NCBI GenBank assembly: GCA_018105865.1
Contig: CM030852.1
Coordinates: forward strand, 13,079,845-13,143,844
Source of the DNA: Metaphire vulgaris
Lineage: Eukaryota > Annelida > Clitellata > Crassiclitellata > Megascolecidae
Length of the DNA stretch: 64,000 nt
Reading direction: 5' to 3'
In this document: positions 23,954 to 61,775 of the stretch, piece by piece
How the letters are laid out: every line of letters begins with the position of its first letter
How positions within the stretch are numbered: position 1 is the first letter of the stretch
Notes under the pieces: model-generated
Databases searched by the model: none
Told to the model about the DNA's origin: nothing
Seen by the model: the letters and a program-made list of their open reading frames with translations, nothing else
Position numbers and translations under genes: made by a program

Positions 23954-26345
23954 TCAGTGCAAAAGTAAAATGTAGATTTGACTGTCAACAGTGTACATAT
24001 TCTTGAAACCAGTGATTAATTGATTTTCATCACTGTCGTAATAATATGAAATTCCCCACAATGACAAGAAGACATCGTCTGGACCTTTTCCAAAAAACTT
24101 CCTCAATGATGCAGCAATAGGATCATCGGAGGCCGAAGGAACGAAACACCAATTTTCATTAGAAACGTTGCTACATTGGAAGCTATAATCGAATGCATCA
24201 ACTCTATTTGATATAAACTGATCCACCAAACTTTCGTCAGAGGCGCTGTATTCTGCTGCCAAATGCTTGGTATTGTAGCTTCTGCTCTCCATCGTTAGCC
24301 TGAATAAATGAAAATCATTTCCTTTCTCTGGCATGTGACTCGCAATGAAGAAGGAGAAGCGTTTTATTTTCGTTGTCACAATTTCATATTCAGTTGTTCC
24401 GTTCGCGTCGGCCCTCGATTCTACTTTGAAGTCGTACATTTCACTCAGACGCAAATCAACCTGCTTGATACCCTTTCCATCATTCAAACGAAGATCGTAA
24501 GACACGAAACGAAACCAATATTGACCAAATTTTGTATTAAGTTTGTATTCAATCGTCTTTACGAATGATATTTTGCGAATGAGTGTTCCGTTGGCATTGC
24601 GCACACGTAGAGAAGATTGTCAAACCATCCAATTATTAGCAAATGTCCGTCGTTTGTGACTGTCATGAAACCTAAAGTTCCTTTTGAGGGACATGAGAAC
24701 TTGCTCATCAAATGATCTTCCCATCTTATCTGCCAGGTTCCTGTTGAGTAGCCATGCATGAAGAGTCTCTTCGTTTTCTTGCACCATTGCATGTCATATA
24801 GATCCGTGATGTCATCAGTGTTTATTATAAAGAGAAGGCTAAAGGGATGTCGGTCTTCAAAAACGCGAATATGAGATATAAAGAAAATAGAACCACTAAC
24901 ATTCCTGTCCAAATATCTACATAGGACCGTGATGAATTGGTCGAATTTAGCAAATGAAATGGCTTCATATGGATGAACATCAATAATCGTCATAAGTCGA
25001 AAATTTTCTGAAAGACACCAAAACATTTTCGTGCCAAATAATGCGTTATGTTACCATGTGATGTTTAGGTATGTCATCTACTGCAGGCGTGTCAAACTGG
25101 TGACCCGCGGGTCGGATGCGGCCCTTTACAAACTGCCCTGCGTCCCGCACAAAGATTTCTACAAATTTTAATGTTTCTTTAGCAGCACAATTTCTCAAGT
25201 CGATCGCTTATGGTAATGTTTGGGTCAACCTGTGTGTGTGTGTGTGTGTGAACAGTCTTCTTTTATGAAATTGACAAAATGTTCTCAGAGAACAAGACTT
25301 ACTGATCAACATTTGTCATCTCTGATCAAAGTAGGAACTGTTCAAACAATTCAGCCACACATGACAAATTTGTCAGCATCAAGATATGTCAAGTCTCAGG
25401 ACAAAACACTGAAACTGTTTTTTAAAAAAACTAAATTTTAAGCTTTAGAAGTTTTTCATTAAGTCTAACCAACAGCAAGTAGATGTTGCCATTTAAAGCT
25501 TTTTCAAACTACTTAGTGGCTGTATACATGAATTCCGTTGAAACAATTGTATGCACATTGGAGGCTATGTTTCTAAATTGAAGTTAAAAATGAAGCACTA
25601 AATATCACTAAATGTTAAATGATTTCAATTAGTTGTAATGTGCGCAATTAGTTTTTGTGTGTGACCTCCATGGCAATACCAATATGACCCATGCGACCCT
25701 CGGGGGCTACCTGAGTTTGACATGCCTGATCTACTGTATTTATTATCATGAAGCAGAACGTACAAATAGTAAAAGTTACATCGTGAGTCAATATGAATAA
25801 TTTATTGGCGAAACAAAGAAAACCAGTGTAATTTAACTGGTCGTCGGACATTCAATTTTAATCAAAGGCATTGTAACAACAACTGCAGTTACTCTACTCG
25901 AAGATGTACTTTGGAGTCGATATGAGATTTTATGTTTGTCAACCCAGATTTCAGTTTAATAGTAAATTTACTTATCAGAGGGTCAGGGAGCAGTCATTGG
26001 GCAAATTGATTGCCACGAATGTCAGTTATCCTTTATGGCGAAGTTGGCGAACATCGAATATAAAGTTGTCAGTGATAGTTTTGCTGTGGCTTCAAATGCA
26101 TAATTTTGCGACTACATTAGATTCCTATCTTGCTTAATCTTTGCCTTACTTTTCTCCACTGATATCACTTTATGTTCTGTGTCGGTGACTTTGTCGTAAT
26201 GGAGTGAAGCAAACGATCGATTGAAATCAACGACCAACAGAAGAATCATCGCTCGATAGAAAAAAGACGACATTTCGACTGAAAAGCGATTTAACTGAAT
26301 TTTCAACTGTTGCTCAGTCAAGATTTCACTCAGTCGCCGTTTCAC
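23954..26345 (-). pseudogene. Frameshifted copy of an unrecognised two-exon secreted-protein gene
   Basis: Exon 1 is 26150-26345 (or from the ATG at 26273). Exon 2 is 23954-25007 after a cag acceptor, with a phase-1 junction (A|GTAAGG donor). The product closely matches the intact copy at 34729-37131. The N-terminus MSSFFYRAMILLLVV looks like a signal peptide. Exon 2 shares FAKFDQFITVL, WQIRWEDHLM.KFSCPS, DGHLLI, NGTLIRKISF, FHLFRLT.ES and a terminal SQIYIL. Relative to the intact copy there are two extra bases right after LLYVC (about 24600), which breaks the frame. The intron carries a 645-bp hAT element. No known family was recognised. Could be a true pseudogene or an assembly indel. Confidence 0.75.
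25084..25728. mobile_element. hAT-type element, 645 bp
   Basis: Ends CAGGCGTGTCAAACTGG and TGAGTTTGACATGCCTG with perfect 8-bp ATCTACTG (25076-25083, 25729-25736). These ends are typical of non-autonomous hAT copies. It lies in the intron of the frameshifted gene copy, and has no equivalent in the intact copy's intron. Confidence 0.94.
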
Positions 26346-28530: not shown

Positions 28531-28876
28531 CTCCCAACACACTCTCTGCCCAATGAAACTAACATGATATAAAATATTTGGTGCTCAGATATAAATATTT
28601 AATAACCATTTCTAAGATTTTCAAGTAAAATGTCATGTTTCCATAGAATATTTCAAATTAAGCCTATCTCACTTTCTGTCCTCGCTGGTCGCGTTGAATC
28701 CGTTGGCGGCCCGCATGCGGTCCGCGGGCCGCAGTTTGCCACCCTCTGCCTTAAAGTGTTACTGTAAATCCTGATTACATTACAGTGTCGCTGATTCCAG
28801 GGCAAATCGAAATGCAATTATTGTAAGACTACTGTGAGAGATGGTTGCGCTCTGATTAATTAACGTTCGTTCCTCC

Positions 28877-29750
28877 TCAACAGCTGCATCTGCAATCCGT
28901 AACGACCGGATAGACGATCCGTATCCACTGGCACCGTCCCTGCGACTGGACAGTGCCACCACAGCACCCGCTTCGACGTCGACCTCTCCGGCTTGCAGGA
29001 CATTCCGGGCGGAAAGGAGCACGACCGGGACCCGCCGCCACTCCTGCCCCTGGAGCAGTCGCCCTGGCGGATCCAGCGCGGCCAGAACGTCCGTCCCAGA
29101 TCGAGCCATCGGCGGTGGACGGGGCAGTAGGTGTAGGCGGCCAGGTAGGTCCGTAGCAGCATCCGTTGTCTCTTACCGCCGCCGAGCTTTCCTAGACTTC
29201 TACCTCCGGGAAATTGGTCGAACTTGGGAAATCGAAACGACGTCGAGATGTTCTCGATGGCGGCATAGGTGTAGAAGAGCGTCCCGTTCGGGTGTTTCAC
29301 GCTGTCTTCCGGGCGTCCGATCGACATAAACGACCCGTCGAAGTCGTCGCCGAGTATCGCCGCCAGGACCCGAGGGTCGCGGTCGGCCCTGGTCGGCAGC
29401 GAGTCCTTGTCCGCAAACCCCGGAAGCGGCGGGCGAGGAGGAGGCAGGTCGTCGGAGACGGTCAGCCTCCAGGGGGACGGCCCGAGTCGCCTCCGGCCCG
29501 TCTTCGACCCGGTGCCGCCGGTCCACGCTCGAGGCCCTTCGTCGGCGTTCGGCTTTAGGAGGACGTGGGGCGGAAGAATCGCCGTCGAGGCCGTCGACGA
29601 CGACGACGACGACATCATCAAGACGACTAAGGTTGTCGTTGTGATGAGTAGAAGTCGTTGCGCAGTCGTCGTCGTCGTTGTTTGCCGACAGCTGATGAGG
29701 AAAAATTGACCGGAAAGATCTAAGTCTTCGCTCGATAACGAACGTTTCAT
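28877..29750 (-). CDS. NOG: Noggin (secreted BMP antagonist), single exon, one frameshift
   Basis: Noggin binds BMP ligands outside the cell and blocks receptor contact. The reading frame opens at 29750 (context CAAAATGA). It has a hydrophobic segment at residues 33-46, then a low-complexity Ser/Thr stretch. Family landmarks follow: ILGDDFDGSFMSIGRPED (the conserved LGG.YD.GFM..PPED region), GGGKRQRMLL, then the cystine-knot domain TYCPVHRRWLDLGRTFWPRW with SCSFPPGMSCKPE and VLWWHC. Nine cysteines in noggin spacing are present if the frame is changed by one base at about 28946-28952 (one extra base after the TGT of WWHC). The -1 continuation then reads RCQWIRIVYPVVTDC and ends CSC-stop at 28877, the canonical noggin terminus. 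Without the shift the frame ends at 28861 with unrelated residues. Intron-less as in vertebrate noggins; about 290 residues. The clean downstream frame argues for a sequencing error. Confidence 0.93.
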
Positions 29751-29786
29751 TTTGTAGCCGAGTCACCTTCAAAATAACACAACAAC

Positions 29787-34728: not shown

Positions 34729-37131
34729 TCAAAGCAGAGATAAAATGTAAATTTGACTGTCACTAATGTATATATTATTGAAACCAAAGATTAATTGATT
34801 TCCAGCACTGTCGTAATAATACGAAATTATCCAGAATGACAAGAGAAGATCGTCGGGATCCAATCTATATCTCAGTCTCATTTTTTCTGCATGCGGATTA
34901 TCGGACGTCGAAGGAACTAAACACCAATTTTCATTAGAAACGTTGTTACACTGGAACGTATAATAGAATGCATCAACTTTGTTTGATATAAACTGATCCA
35001 CCAAACTGTCGTCAGAGGCGCTGTATTCTGCTGCTAAATGCTTGGTGATGTTCCTCCTGCTCTCAATCGTTAGTCTGAATAAATGAAAATCATTTCCCTT
35101 CTCTGGTGCGTGATTCGTAATGAAGAATGAGAAGCGTTTTATTTTCGATGTCGCATTTTTATGTTCAGTTGTTCCGTTTACGTCGGCACTCGATTCTACT
35201 TTGAAATCTTTCATTTTACCCAGATACAAATCAACTTCGCTGGTGCCATTTCCATAATTCAAAAGAGGATCGTAATGCACGAAATAAAACCAATATTGAC
35301 CAAATGTTGTATGAAGGGTGTAATAATTAGTCTTTATGAATGATATTTTGCGAATGAGTGTTCCATTGACATCGCACACGTAGAGAAGAGTGTTAACTCT
35401 GTCTTTTATCAGCAAGTGTCCGTCGTTTGTGAGTGACATAAAAGCTAAATTTGTTCCTGATGGACATGAGAACTTCCTCATCAAATGATCTTCCCATCTT
35501 ATCTGCCAGATTCCTGTTGAGTAGCTAAGGATGAAGAAGCTCTCTGTTTTCTTGCTCCATATCATGTCATGTGGCCCCTCTATTTCACCAGTGTTAATTA
35601 TGAAGCGAAGGCTAAACGGATATATGTCTTCATAAACGCGAATATGAGATATGCTGATGCCTTCATTCATGTCAAAATAGCTACATAGGACCGTGATAAA
35701 TTGGTCGAATTTAGCAAATGACATGGCTTGGTATGGACTAACATCAATAATCGTCATAAGTTGAAAATTACCTGAAAGATACCGAAACATTTTCACGCCA
35801 AATAATGTGTTATGTTACCACGTGATGTCAATGGCGGCTCCAGGAAGGAGCATTAGGCAATTAGGTGCAACCGGGGTCCGTGCCGTGCCTCAATTTAAAA
35901 TGAATGCCTGACTCCCAAACTTTAGTATTTAGGCATCTTGACAATGGTCACCATAAGAATCTAGTAGGCAAAAGTGAAAAATGGTGGAAAACTTTCGGCT
36001 GGCTTTACCATATATTTTAGAGGATACGAGTTGGCATTGAATGAAGTGGGTGGGGTTGGATAAAAGGCCATGGCAAAACCACGTCTAGACGCGCCCTAAA
36101 TTCGCGTTGAACAGTATAACCGTTTACAACATTGATGTTTAATTAGATATCTCGTCGAGGTAATGTAATGTGACATTTGTAGTAGGTTAGCGCCTCTTCT
36201 ATCTTTCTACTCAGAGGCGCTCCTGGCATTGGACGATAATTATAATTGCAAAGGGTAAAGATAGTGAGACGTTAGTCTGCTTTCGCATTGAGCAGAGCAA
36301 GGTTAGGAGTAATTTGTGATTCCCGAAATAATTAAATGGATGGGTTTAAGGCATTCCAGAGGAAGGGAAATCCCCTGAGTATCACTGCAAGGGAACGGGG
36401 AAGCCCGACGCTGGTATAAGAGCAGTGCATGATCTGGGGACATGAACATTCTTCTGGTCAGTGGACCGGAGCAATGGAAGAGGCTGTGATTTGTGAAAAG
36501 CTCATTAAAGGTATTTCATCTATTTATAATCACAGTAGTCTTGCCAAATCGGATATTGCGGTCATTTCCATTCGTCGGAACCAAAATCCAATAGCCAAAT
36601 CGTTCTGCTATTTTAGCCGGAGATGTATTTTGAAGTGGATATGAGATTTTATGTTTGTTAAACCGTGGTGGATTTCAATCTGATAATAAATTATCGTCAT
36701 AAGTCGAAAATGTTCTGAAAGATTAATTCAAGCGAATTAGAGCGTTATCAGATTTTACGGGTCTAGAACCAAAAACAGCAAATCATTCCATTGGCCATTA
36801 GACAATTACAGTAGGTGTCGTTTGTCTTTCAAGGCGAACATCGAATATAAAGTTGCCAGTGATAACTTTGCAGTGGCTTTAAATGCATAACTTCGCGATT
36901 ATATCGCTTTCTTATCTTGCTTTATCTTCACTTACTTTTCTCCAGTGATATCACTTCATATTCTGGGTCGGTGACTTTATCGTAATAGATCGAAGCAAAC
37001 GATCGATTTAAATCAACGACCAACAGAAGAACCATCGCTCGACCGAAAAAAGACGACATTTCGACTGAAAAGCGATTTAACTGAACTTTCAACTGTTGCT
37101 CAGTCAAGATTTCACTCAGTCGTCGTTTCAC
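34729..37131 (-). CDS. Unrecognised secreted protein, two exons, intact paralogue
   Basis: Exon 1 is 36936-37131 and exon 2 is 34729-35771. The phase-1 junction (A|GTAAGT donor; ctttcag acceptor) joins ...LEK to SNFQLMTIIDV. Two in-frame starts exist. The one at 37059 gives MSSFFGRAMVLLLVVDLNRSFA, a good signal peptide, and a 388-residue precursor. The one at 37131 adds 24 residues that are also conserved in the other copy. The mature part has regularly spaced aromatic/hydrophobic strands and turns such as WQIRWEDH, NDGHLLIKD, YVCDVNGTLIRK, which suggest a beta-rich, possibly propeller-like fold (inference). Several N-glycosylation sequons and few cysteines. It shows only a handful of differences per 50 residues from 23954-26345. 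No family was identified. Probably a lineage-specific extracellular protein. Confidence 0.7.
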
Positions 37132-38848: not shown

Positions 38849-39240
38849 GATGACGTCAAGACCAGTGACGTCAAGACCAATGACGTAAAGACCAATGACG
38901 TAAAGACCAATGACGTCAAGACCAATGACATCAAGATCAATGACGCCAAGACCAATGACGCCAAGACCAATGACGCCAAGACCAATGACGCCAAGACCAA
39001 TGACGTCAAGACAATGACGTGAAAAACAATGACGTGAAAACCAATGACGACAAGACCAATTACGTCAAGATCAATTACGCCAAGACCAGCGACGTCAAGA
39101 CCAATGACGTCAACATCAATTACACCAAGACCAACGACGTCAAGACCAATGACGTCAAGACCAATGACGTAAAGACCAATGACGTCAACATCAATTACGC
39201 CAGGACCAATGACGTCAAGACCAATGACGTCACTATCGGT
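38849..39240. repeat. 15-bp minisatellite, about 27 units, each built around TGACGTCA
   Basis: Consensus unit AATGACGTCAAGACC. About nine units carry the exact palindrome TGACGTCA (the CRE/ATF core) and most others differ by one base. It starts about 25 bp after the netrin stop codon, so it should lie in the netrin 3' UTR or just beyond. Because 15 is divisible by three, all frames give pentapeptide repeats that are not genuine proteins. Confidence 0.95.
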
Positions 39241-39263: not shown

Positions 39264-47367
<8,104 letters not shown>

Positions 47368-47423
47368 GTCTCGAATCAGAAGTTTTATGCTAATTTCCGG
47401 CTTTATTGCTACTTCACGCAGTA

Positions 47424-47795
47424 GAACTTCGTTATAATGTACATGTAATTAACGGGTCTGTAAAATATAGAACGTTATAACTAACGTAACTTCGTTAAAA
47501 TGTACATGTAATTAACGGGTCTGTAAAATATAGTTCGTTATAACTAACGTAACTTCGTTATAATGTACATGTAATTAACGGGTCTGTAAAATATAGAGCG
47601 TTATAACTAACGTAACTTCGTTAAAATGTACATGTAATTAACGGGTCTGTAAAATATAGTACGTTGTAACGTAACCGGCGTACGTTATATCCAATACCAA
47701 CCGTTACGGTATCGCATCACACGGGACCGTACATTGCGGTGCGTTATAACCGACCATGCGTTATAACCGAGTCCGTTATAACGAAGTTCTAGTGT
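47424..47795. mobile_element. 'GAACTTCGTTATAA' element with four internal tandem units
   Basis: Starts AGTAGAACTTCGTTATAATG and ends TTATAACGAAGTTCTAGTGT (inverted). The 5' part is repeated about four times (unit ~70 bp: ACTTCGTTATAATGTACATG...AACGGGTCTGTAAAATATAG). The 3' part has CCAATACCAACCGTTACGG as at 3746-3930. It lies immediately upstream of the netrin start codon (57 bp). Confidence 0.85.
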
Positions 47796-56789: not shown

Positions 56790-57001
56790 AATTATTATTA
56801 ATATATATATATATTATATACACATTATATAATATATATACAATTATTATTATTATTAGGCCTATTAGTAGTGGTAATAATAATAATAACAATAATAATA
56901 ATAGCAGTAGTAGTAGAAGTAGTAGCAGTATTTGTAATACTAATACAAATTATAACACTGCAAATAATAGTAGCAGTAGTAGTTGTTGCTGTAGAAGTAG
57001 T

Positions 57002-57073
<72 letters not shown>
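56790..57073. repeat. AT/ATT/AGT microsatellite; target of the LTR element
   Basis: Mixed TA, AAT, AGT and a final (ATT)n block that abuts the 5' LTR; the same (ATT)n continues after the 3' LTR at 61457. Confidence 0.93.
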
Positions 57074-57074
<1 letters not shown>

Positions 57075-57481
57075 GAGCCGAACCTGGTTTGCCCCGGTCA
57101 CTAGAGGGCGAGACCCAGTCATTTCACCCACGGTCGCTAGATGGCGACGCGTGGGTATAAAAGCTAAGGCACGGCCATTTCCCTCCCTTCGTTCTTTTAC
57201 GATCGGCCGGCTTGGATTATTAGGGTTGCTACGCGGCGGGGCACGAAAGGCTATTTGGAATAATGTCTGTTTAGTAGTTATTGAGTCGCTATTTAAGGCT
57301 GTTTTGGAATAAACAACGCATATTGGAAACGTATCATCGAAACGGCGTTCGTGTTATAAATCGTCGACATACCTAGAGCTTAAAGTCCTCACCTTCTAAG
57401 GCACGAGGCCGAACCACGACGCGGGACGCTTTCGCCATCCTGGGGTGCAAAGGGGGGACGTTAACCCCCCCTATCGTTTCA
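57074..57481 (+). repeat. 5' LTR, 408 bp
   Basis: Begins TGAGCCGAACCTGG and ends CCTATCGTTTCA. Holds a TATA box (TATAAAAG at 57156) and AATAAA at 57308, giving a U3-R-U5 order. Compared with the 3' LTR only about four single-base indels are seen, and no clear substitutions. Confidence 0.93.
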
Positions 57482-57482
57482 C

Positions 57483-57500
57483 TGGTACCAGAACCGGGTG
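57483..57500 (+). promoter_or_regulatory. tRNA primer-binding site
   Basis: TGGTACCAGAACCGGG starts one base after the 5' LTR. TGG is the complement of the universal tRNA CCA end; the tRNA species is not assigned. Confidence 0.75.
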
Positions 57501-57840
57501 AGTCTTTGTATGTCGGTCGATTTTGTGTTTTTGGATAGTTTTTAGATTTTTGATTGCGAACGAACGGCCGTTTTCTGGAGTTTTCCAGCGCGTGCGTTCA
57601 ACCGGCGCCATTTTGTGTCTTTGTGGAGCGAGCTCGTGCTAGCCGCCGCCATTTCGTGTCGTTTCTATACGAACGCGTTTGCGTTCCGACCGGGTTCTTT
57701 GTGTGTCTTGAACACGTGAGCCGCCGTACGAGCGCCATTTTTTGCCGTTGAGCGGGCACGAGGCCAACGGACGGCAGTTTTTGATCGAAAAGCGCGCGAA
57801 ACTTTAGATCTGTCGCGCAGCGCAGCGCTTAATTAAAAAG

Positions 57841-59406
57841 ATGGACAGAGCCGATAGAGACGTGGAGGTGCGCTTCGAAGGGCAGCAAGTCTTTTACCGT
57901 TACGTGGACCGTCGCAGTCCAGACACAGACGAGGGGTATTCGTCTGCGGGTGCGCAGCGGCGGCAGCGATTGAGTGAATACGATGCCGCCGTGGGAGGTG
58001 ACTCCCCTGATTTTCGATCGAGCCACGTTGACCAAGATCGACATTGTTTTAGACAGACTGATGCGCAGTGTGCGGCCGAGCGTGTCACTGATGCACGGCG
58101 GTTCAGCGAATTTTCTGCAGACGCACGAATGCGCAAGGAAATTTTCGACCGCGGTATACAGAGTAATTGTGGACGATCTCGCGAGCGAGTGACTGAAAAT
58201 GACGATGCTCGGACGCGAAATGTGGCTGTCGATCACGAAATGCGAAATAATACGCGGCCGTTGCGCGATTTTTCTGAAAGCACCGCAGATTTGCGGCAGC
58301 CTTGCGATTTTTCTACCGACGCCGTCGATATATGGGCGCACAAAAAAAGTCAGACGCGACAGAATTACGATTGGCCGGACGACTCTGACATCGTCGAAAC
58401 GCGTTACAGAATTCGTACACGTGAAACCGGCGTTCAAACCGAAAACCCATCTGGCGATCTGATGGTAAACGATAAATTAGAGGAAATTCTTAAAACGTTG
58501 AAGTATCAAGAAGCCAGACAACGATGTATGGAAGGCCGTGTTGACAATTTAGCGGCGGTAGTGTTATCTTCGTCGCGCGACGGTGCAACGCCCTCTAGCG
58601 ACCATGCGACTTTCGAAAACCGATCATATTCTGCGCAGCGATCGCCGGTTAGATTTAATGATCGGGAAACGCGCCGCGAGTTGAGACGAACTACACCTTA
58701 CAAGTTCGAGACCGAAAGTCGAGTTAGCGGTATCAGGTCTTGGCGGGAAAATTTTGGATTTGAACCAAGTGACCGGCGTTGCTTTAACTGCCTATCAGCT
58801 TTTCACTCTGTTAAAGACTGTGCGATTAGGCGCAGGCCTAAGAAGAGGAATTTTGCGGCACCGAACTTTAACCAGAATACAGCCAGTAATAACAACAGAA
58901 ATTTCGGGAGTCGATCCCGGTTTAACCCAGTCGGAGGGGACAGAAACCGTTGGGCGGGCCAGATTCGAACGATCGAGCCCCTCTCTCAGGCAGCTAGGAT
59001 TTCTAAAAGGCCAGTGGAAAACTTGGTCGGCTTGCAGTACGCCGGCTGCAGCACGAGTAATAAACCGATTGGACCTGAGATTCTGTTGGCTCAGTCGGCT
59101 AGCGTTACCCGCGAGACTTTAGGTTCGAACAACAGATCTGTTGTATCTGAGAGACACGCTGACCCTATTAAAAGGACAAGGGAAACTTCCACGCCAGTAC
59201 TGAAGCGAGTTGGAAGTATTTATTCTGTCGCGAGAGGGAGAGCTGGGGGTGACACGCCCTTTGACTATTCAGTTGAGCGCAGTACAGCCATTAAACCTCG
59301 ACGCCGCAGACAACGGCAGATGGCAGTAAGAAACAGACTCGCTTACAGAAGGCACTCAGTCGATCTACGCATTCAAACTCTTCTGAGTCCGAATTTTGGA
59401 ATTTAA
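57841..59406 (+). CDS. Gag-like protein of the LTR element, 521 residues
   Basis: The only long ORF of the element, starting 360 bp after the 5' LTR. It is highly charged and probably largely disordered in its N-terminal 300 residues. A single CCHC zinc knuckle (C-x2-C-x4-H-x4-C) lies at residues 314-327, followed by a basic stretch (RRRPKKR), as in nucleocapsids of retrotransposon Gag. A clear capsid-fold region was not recognised. No fused protease or polymerase follows the stop. The frame is intact. Confidence 0.85.
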   Translation: MDRADRDVEVRFEGQQVFYRYVDRRSPDTDEGYSSAGAQRRQRLSEYDAAVGGDSPDFRSSHVDQDRHCFRQTDAQCAAERVTDARRFSEFSADARMRKEIFDRGIQSNCGRSRERVTENDDARTRNVAVDHEMRNNTRPLRDFSESTADLRQPCDFSTDAVDIWAHKKSQTRQNYDWPDDSDIVETRYRIRTRETGVQTENPSGDLMVNDKLEEILKTLKYQEARQRCMEGRVDNLAAVVLSSSRDGATPSSDHATFENRSYSAQRSPVRFNDRETRRELRRTTPYKFETESRVSGIRSWRENFGFEPSDRRCFNCLSAFHSVKDCAIRRRPKKRNFAAPNFNQNTASNNNRNFGSRSRFNPVGGDRNRWAGQIRTIEPLSQAARISKRPVENLVGLQYAGCSTSNKPIGPEILLAQSASVTRETLGSNNRSVVSERHADPIKRTRETSTPVLKRVGSIYSVARGRAGGDTPFDYSVERSTAIKPRRRRQRQMAVRNRLAYRRHSVDLRIQTLLSPNFGI

Positions 59407-59469
59407 AACGTCCTGTAGGCCCATTTAAATATTGTAAATTTACGGGGGATGATGAAGTTAGAGGGGGAC

Positions 59470-61030
59470 AAGGTAGAAATTTTGGGTGGAAAGAAGATAT
59501 GTATCAACCTATTTTGACCTGAATTCAAATACGCAGCCAGATTTGTTTAGAATTGATTTTAGCGTGTAGATCGTAGTTTGAACATGATTTTCAATTATGA
59601 TTGTTATTAGCCTGTTTATTATTATAAACGTTATCATTATTATCATGACTATCATCACCGCCACGAAAATTATTATTATTATTGTCTTGCTTATTATTGC
59701 AGTTACTCTGATAATTGTTATTACCCTTATTATTATGTTTATTATCATCATTGTCGTCATTATTATGCCTATTATTGCATTTACTATGATTAAATTTATG
59801 CTCATTATATTTGGTCATCAGTATCATGATTTGCATTTATTACGCGAATGCACTGTGCAGTGGCAGCAGTAAGGGCAGCCTGCCATTGCATTTAAATATT
59901 ATTATCATGTTTATAATTACAATGCACATTTACTATGATTGAGATTATGATTCCTGTGGTCTATCCTCGGTACCATGATAACTGTTGTCGCCATTATTAT
60001 TATCAGCACTGTTTATTAGGCTATAGCATTTAGGCCTAGGCCTGTATAATTATCACTGCAAATATTATCAGTTAATGTCGCCATTTTGATTATCATGTTG
60101 TTATATTATGTCGTTTATCATGAGCAATATTTAATGTATATGAGGCTGGGCACAACTTGAGACAATCGGATTAAGATCTCGACCATTCAAAGGAGATGGT
60201 CCCCCATTCTGACGTCACTCAGACGGCATGAGCACGGCGAACAATGCTCAAGTCGCCGGAAATACGGCGCTGTCGACTTACCACTGTGTCACTATCACTG
60301 TGTCCAATCCTATCACGATTGCACGATGTCGGGTCGCCTAAAAAATGGCGGCAGTCGAACTATGATGTCACGTAAGCGACGTGAATCTACAGGTGGCGCT
60401 TGACCGCTTGGGGTCGCTACCTAACCGACCTACTGTCGCTGACGTCACCTTCGCCGACTCTCGAGTCACTCCCTGCAGTCGCGACGTCATACTGTCGAGG
60501 GGAAGGAACTTTCCACTACGCCCACAAGAGCAGACTCACTCCTCCCACCATTCTGTCGACGGCTATCGCTGAAGCTGCCGTGGATTATTTCTGTGTCTAT
60601 TTGGCCGAACTCCCGGGCCGTAGACGTTGTCCGAGGCGCCGACCGGCGCAGCCACGAAGGACATAAACGTTCTCAGACCCTTCGAACTCTGTTACCCCCA
60701 AACAGAGACAGACATCTCCTTTTGTGACCCGAAATAAACTCAGTTAACGTTTTAGACCCCCATATATATAGATTAGCGATTGAAACATGTGTTCCCGGAC
60801 AGCATTTGAGCTGCTGTTGTCTTTTAGAGTTAGTTAATCGTTTGATTGTCCACTTGTAATGATCGAAACGTCTGTTTATTTCGTTTAGATTTAGGTTATG
60901 TTTGATTATAATGTTTAGGCATATGTTTTATTCACAGACGGTATATCCATTGCATAGTTCGCCATTGCAAATGCATTTTTATTGACCCTCCTGCCCCGTG
61001 GGTGGTACATTACTCGTCACGGGGACGTGA
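59470..61030. other. Internal non-coding part of the LTR element
   Basis: AT-rich with many ATT/ATC triplets to about 60130, then a GC-richer stretch (60150-60730). No polymerase motif such as YxDD or an integrase zinc site could be read in any frame. ORFs here are short and compositional. Confidence 0.7.
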
Positions 61031-61050
61031 CGCTTGTGGGGGGAGGGCTG
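61031..61050 (+). promoter_or_regulatory. Polypurine tract
   Basis: GTGGGGGGAGGG directly before the 3' LTR; expected primer for plus-strand DNA synthesis. Confidence 0.75.
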
Positions 61051-61456
61051 TGAGCCGAACCTGGTTTGCCCCCGGTCACTGAGGGCGAGACCAGTCATTT
61101 CACCCACGGTCGCTAGATGGCGACGCGTGGGTATAAAAGCTAAGGCACGGCCATTTCCCTCCCTTCGTTCTTTTACGATCGGCCGGCTTGGATTATTAGG
61201 GTTGCTACGCGGCGGGGCACGAAAGGCTATTTGGAATAATGTCTGTTTAGTAGTTATTGAGTCGCTATTTAAGGCTGTTTTGGAATAAACAACGCATATT
61301 GGAAACGTATCATCGAAACGGCGTTCGTGTTATAAATCGTCGACATACCTAGAGCTTAAAGTCCTCACCTTCTAAGGCACGAGGCCGAACCACGACGCGG
61401 GACGCTTTCGCCATCCTGGGGTGCAAAGGGGGGACGTTAACCCCCCTATCGTTTCA
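61051..61456 (+). repeat. 3' LTR, 406 bp
   Basis: Same sequence as 57074-57481 except for homopolymer-length differences and one deleted base in CACT(A)GAGGG. Ends 320-400 bp upstream of the Mab-21-type ORF. Confidence 0.93.
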
Positions 61457-61775
61457 TTATTATTATTGCTGTTGTAGGAGTAATCGTTTGCAAACGATTA
61501 TTTATAATATAGGCTATTAACTTCAAGCGGATGAAGTACTTAGTACAGAAAGCAGGATAGATGTCGGTTCTTTACCGTTTCTGTTTGGGATGTATGCCCT
61601 GATCTTTATCGTTATCTTACTCGACGACTTCTATAGCGCCGTACACACGACGAAGGCCGAAGTCAAAGGCTCTGGCATTTGTAATTGACTATGCTTCGTG
61701 ACACTCAGTTTGCGTTCACAATACAATTCTGCAGCCGTCAGTTTCTGACAACTCCACTTTTACTTTTAAGACGTT

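Follow-up and report, generated by a model that had tools for sequence, protein, structure and literature searches.

A recently inserted LTR retrotransposon without readable pol in the Metaphire vulgaris genome, carrying a probable nucleocapsid-like open reading frame

Large non-autonomous LTR elements without coding sequence are known as LARDs. TRIMs are defined by a total length under 1000 bp, in the definition given in PMC6934838. Elements that carry gag and no pol are already known, as TR-GAGs in plants and, going by a title, as CM-gag in a mosquito. As summarised in PMC8704663, the Arabidopsis element AT5TE33540 has two LTRs, one GAG frame and no pol, and transposes in the ddm1 mutant. 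CM-gag of Culex pipiens is an element that 'contains only a gag gene' according to the title of a 1997 paper cited in PMC3286476. For Culex, PMC3286476 also describes a group of 38 LTR families that have no coding sequence and for which no master is known, and 13 Mag-related families with a primer-binding site (PBS) for tRNA-Leu or tRNA-Ser, with one exception (tRNA-Arg). The TR-GAG literature found in our search concerns plants. An earlier note on the DNA studied here had called gag-bearing elements without pol rare in animals, which is a fair statement, but they are not unprecedented if CM-gag is what its title says (PMC3286476).

The window, which is the whole stretch of DNA analysed (64 kb), contains an element of 4383 bp at positions 57074-61456 whose anatomy is that of a complete inserted LTR retrotransposon on the plus strand. 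Two LTRs, a PBS-like site, a polypurine tract (PPT)-like site and a 521-codon open reading frame (ORF) with a CCHC knuckle, all reported in the earlier note, are present (Table 1), and the paired direct LTRs with TG...CA ends place the element among the LTR retrotransposons. Our preferred reading, with a probability of about 0.68, is a non-autonomous LTR retrotransposon that is structurally complete, was inserted recently and was probably mobilised by Ty3/Gypsy machinery, and whose ORF is nucleocapsid-like and lacks a capsid.

Table 1 Features of the element and its insertion site (window positions)
Feature	Position	Strand	Remark
Shortest target duplication that fits, left copy, TTAT	57070..57073	+	Ambiguous inside the TTA array
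5' LTR	57074..57481	+	408 bp, TG...CA; TATAAA at 57156, AATAAA at 57308
Candidate primer-binding site, TGGTACCAGAACCGGG	57483..57498	+	TGG-starting 16-mer, 1 base past the 5' LTR; sequence only
Splice-donor-like GTGAGT	57498..57503	+	Overlaps the last base of the candidate PBS
5' leader	57499..57840	+	3 of the 9 SGCCATTTY matches in the window
521-codon ORF	57841..59406	+	Arg-rich (15.4 %), one CCHC knuckle
CX2CX4HX4C zinc knuckle	58780..58821	+	Residues 314-327; motif match
Non-coding stretch at the expected place of pol	59407..61037	+	Six-frame Pfam search of 59407-61050: no retroelement domain
Polypurine tract (PPT-like, G-rich), GGGGGGAGGG	61038..61047	+	3 bases upstream of the 3' LTR; sequence only
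3' LTR	61051..61456	+	406 bp, TG...CA; self-alignment with the 5' LTR
Shortest target duplication that fits, right copy, TTAT	61457..61460	+	End comparison

Elsewhere in the window, where the Pfam scan covered ten chosen frames, a Noggin exon was found at 28863-29762 on the minus strand (E-value 2.3e-31), together with Laminin_N (E-value 4.6e-57) and laminin-EGF exons at 46240-47448, 45395-45838 and 41285-41782, also on the minus strand. The latter resemble parts of a gene of the netrin or laminin type, and the Noggin and laminin exons mark the host as an animal. Two further minus-strand regions, 23954-25050 (221 and 163 residues in two frames that overlap) and 34729-35814 (361 residues), are alike by eye and possibly represent a repeated host gene; the 221- and 361-residue frames matched no Pfam family.

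When the two LTRs were aligned, four of the 409 columns were one-base gaps and the remaining 405 showed no substitution, so that the LTRs differ solely by single-base indels, as had been claimed. Three of the gaps lie in C runs (4/5, 3/2 and 7/6) and the fourth is an A (CTAGAG/CTGAG). Since an excess of indels over substitutions is also the pattern of long-read consensus errors, the true difference between the LTRs may be zero; sequencing or assembly error may account for some of the gaps, given that three are in C runs. The absence of substitutions puts the 95 % upper bound on divergence (computed for 404 sites) at approximately 0.0074 substitutions per site, which at usual animal substitution rates corresponds to an insertion age of at most a few million years. 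That the insertion is recent, as proposed earlier, is borne out by the LTR pair. No further copy of the element was detected inside the 64-kb window, where only three microsatellite-like matches were found besides the LTR pair, and an Rfam scan of 57000-61500 gave no match.

The element sits in an array of perfect TTA repeats (57007-57074). Its observed ends are compatible with a target duplication of 4, 7 or 10 bp and not with one of 5 bp, and the length is ambiguous because the site is a TTA microsatellite. BEL/Pao elements usually produce a 5-bp target duplication. No duplication of that type matches at the ends of this element, a comparison that the microsatellite site weakens.

The candidate PBS resembles what we take to be the complement of the 3' end of an animal tRNA-Leu, and the end of tRNA-Leu(TAA) is presumably partly complementary to it; no tRNA gene was found in the window. 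A literature search with the letters of the candidate PBS returned nothing related, and neither the PBS region nor a 23-mer of the LTR matched any IMG/VR viral contig. A 15-base PBS pattern gave at least 119 matches in prokaryote genomes, which were put down to chance, given the shortness of the pattern and the 257 billion bases searched. From the donor-like GTGAGT at 57498, a spliced transcript is possible. RNA folding of 57482-57840 was no better than that of shuffled sequences (z 0.91).

Several short motifs were also noted in and around the element. Seven of the nine window matches to SGCCATTTY, presumably a YY1-like motif, are inside the element (57173, 57606, 57647, 57733, 60079, 60342 on the minus strand, and 61149), against 2.55 expected per window. 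All four window matches to CTAGRKGGCG are also inside it (57101-57110, 57137-57146, 58589-58598 on the minus strand, and 61113-61122; 0.19 expected for the whole window), two of them being the same site in both LTRs. This motif resembles what we take to be the CTCF core. The CTCF reading was rejected, as a fuller consensus, allowing up to 2 mismatches, placed only 2 of its 14 window matches in the element. CRE-like GACGTCAY is spread across the window, with 3 of 28 matches in the element and 10 in a cluster at 38850-39233.

The claim that no pol is readable held up. The profile-HMM search of 59407-61030 proposed in the earlier note was run with Pfam and found no pol remnants; across the six frames of 59407-61050 no gag- or pol-related domain was detected, and the longest stop-free frame is 101 codons. 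A profile search of this kind may overlook a very divergent pol. Two hits in one minus frame of the same interval, PFF1_TM (E-value 0.043) and Presenilin (E-value 0.37), were far under the cut-offs and were dismissed as low-complexity noise. The interior consists of an AT-rich, degenerate TTA-like part (approximately 59597-60110, GC 0.31) followed by a part with GC 0.54 (60140-60760). Because the low-complexity part resembles the simple repeats of the window, it is possible that host sequence was captured in the place of pol.

These results bear on whether the locus is merely a single-copy deletion or rearrangement derivative, in which an autonomous element, recently inserted, lost or exchanged its pol afterwards, or its source lost pol just before its only jump, so that no pol-less family exists. 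Although a single copy is what is known here, we regard this as unlikely. The 1.6 kb at the place of pol hold no detected remnant of it, whereas a recent loss should leave recognisable pol pieces at one edge, and the lack of LTR substitutions leaves little time for decay. That the insertion is recent and pol-less is a sound conclusion. Mobility as a pol-less unit is judged from one copy, with no second copy, partner or homologue found in the window or in the databases searched. The earlier proposal of mobilisation in trans is reasonable, but one copy is also compatible with a loss of pol after insertion.

The ORF lies in a stop-free stretch of 532 codons, longer than the longest found in each of 1000 resamplings (mean 147, maximum 299) drawn from a first-order Markov model of 57500-59406 on both strands. 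Measured over the whole ORF, the period-3 signal relative to the mean is 5.44; it is 5.46 in 57841-58440 and 3.1 in 58807-59406. However, this signal is not decisive for coding, because the middle of the ORF (58441-59040) is at background (1.02) and the non-coding TTA-like stretch 59410-60009 outscores the ORF (9.59). The GC content varies little between the three codon positions (0.548, 0.500 and 0.483). The GC3 of 0.48, compared with 0.86 in two host exon pieces of the same window (442 codons), would be in keeping with a mobile gene.

The knuckle motif occurred in none of 20000 residue shuffles of the ORF protein, and a basic stretch follows it. No Pfam family was found in the ORF protein at E-values up to 10, leaving the knuckle motif as the recognisable gag feature in place of a GAG domain, and the six frames of 57482-59500 gave no Pfam match. 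The protein contains 4.2 % Leu, and in 12 of 13 windows its composition lies on that side of the charge-hydropathy line where disordered proteins fall. Single-sequence models of the whole ORF (mean pLDDT 39.0) and of a 157-residue piece (mean pLDDT 40.3) contained no capsid-like bundle; apart from a short N-terminal hairpin, the only confident part of the whole-ORF model, isolated low-confidence helices were seen. Such models are weak evidence for the absence of a fold. Judged from composition and models together, a capsid is likely absent from the ORF.

Could the ORF instead encode a full Gag like that of the plant TR-GAGs, with a capsid that has diverged beyond the reach of profiles and single-sequence folding, and assemble particles for itself and a partner? 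In length, 521 residues, it comes close to the GAG of 562 residues reported for the mobile AT5TE33540 in PMC8704663, and the order of knuckle and basic stretch would agree. Against this stand the missing Pfam gag family, the two models without a capsid-like bundle and the content of ILMFVWY, which is 17-26 % in all thirteen 100-residue windows as against 29 % in a noggin, the sole folded protein compared. We give this alternative a low probability. The suggestion that the ORF could form particles found no support: no gag or capsid family was detected, the protein looks mostly disordered and neither model shows a confident capsid-like fold.

No relative of the ORF was found at E-values up to 1 among 7995 scored candidates of the protein database (those sharing most words with it), and residues 265-425 matched none of 155 candidates at E-values up to 10. 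When residues 100-271 of the Noggin frame of the window were used as a control query, 38 of 352 candidates matched; five of these have a given name and four name the organism (Capitella, Rhipicephalus, Patella and Chanos), which indicates that the database does contain animal proteins. An IMG/VR scan with the ORF yielded two stretches that fit the peptide pattern, neither of which was confirmed. Eight weak PDB matches were obtained, all with E-values of 0.23 or worse: seven to LIN-28 and ZCCHC8 and one to the bacterial StpA.

The missing homologue and the predominance of the cellular CCHC proteins LIN-28 and ZCCHC8 among the PDB matches would also suit an ORF that is not derived from gag at all, being a captured or new knuckle gene carried by an LTR element. 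We consider this unlikely, as general knowledge of LTR elements leads one to expect a gag frame to lie right behind the leader and to have one knuckle flanked by a basic stretch, as this ORF does. The probabilities given to the alternatives are not mutually exclusive; the full-Gag and non-gag alternatives both take the element to be non-autonomous and disagree only about the nature of the ORF. The description of the ORF as gag-like stands as far as knuckle and position go, while a Pfam gag family, a homologue and a confident capsid-like fold were not found and the composition is disordered. The ORF is probably a nucleocapsid-bearing gag derivative without a detectable capsid domain.

For the preferred non-autonomous element, all steps past the DNA anatomy are drawn from LTR retrotransposons in general. 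Transcription would start from the 5' LTR, and the RNA would be packaged into particles made by an autonomous partner that has LTR ends and packaging signals in common with the element. The reverse transcriptase of the partner would then copy the RNA from a tRNA primer, and its integrase would insert the copy. The partner is more likely of the Ty3/Gypsy than of the BEL/Pao type, because a 4-bp duplication fits and a 5-bp one does not, and because the presumed primer of this element, of the Leu type, is one reported for the Mag lineage. Most likely the ORF is a gag derivative that has retained a nucleocapsid-like RNA-binding region without a recognisable capsid, and its product would not build particles but act on RNA or in packaging. 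A more speculative proposal, to which we attach little probability, is a pol-less family that keeps its frame open for a disordered protein with a knuckle and no capsid, which would serve as an adaptor in RNA packaging or interfere with the particles of the partner. If true, the element would parasitise another retrotransposon by means of a hijacking factor that it encodes itself.

If other copies share the pol-less layout, this would be an animal protein-coding non-autonomous LTR family, and would raise the question of why a frame is kept without pol; as a lone copy, it would be one more defective or dependent LTR insertion. Our literature search, judged from titles and the openings of abstracts, found no animal element of exactly this layout, and one may exist.

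Compared with the known systems, the element differs from LARDs, which have no coding sequence, in its 521-codon ORF. At 4383 bp it is also longer than a TRIM as defined in PMC6934838. For the Mag lineage of Ty3/Gypsy, a 4-bp duplication fits, and a tRNA-Leu-type primer, presumed for the element, is reported for Mag in Culex in PMC3286476; no reverse transcriptase that would place the lineage was detected in the element by Pfam. It is like the plant TR-GAGs in its two LTRs, single ORF and missing pol, but in AT5TE33540, as presented in PMC8704663, the GAG is a recognised one and there is a similar copy that may be autonomous; neither was found here. CM-gag is an animal gag-only repeat by its title, and the likeness is drawn from that description alone (PMC3286476). 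The Culex cqUNK families, as outlined in PMC3286476, share with the M. vulgaris element near-identical LTRs, the lack of pol and the lack of a known master, and their PBS, PPT and target duplication have a PBS-like site, a PPT-like site and a fitting target duplication as counterparts here; they contain tandem repeats and no coding sequence, whereas the M. vulgaris element carries its 521-codon ORF.
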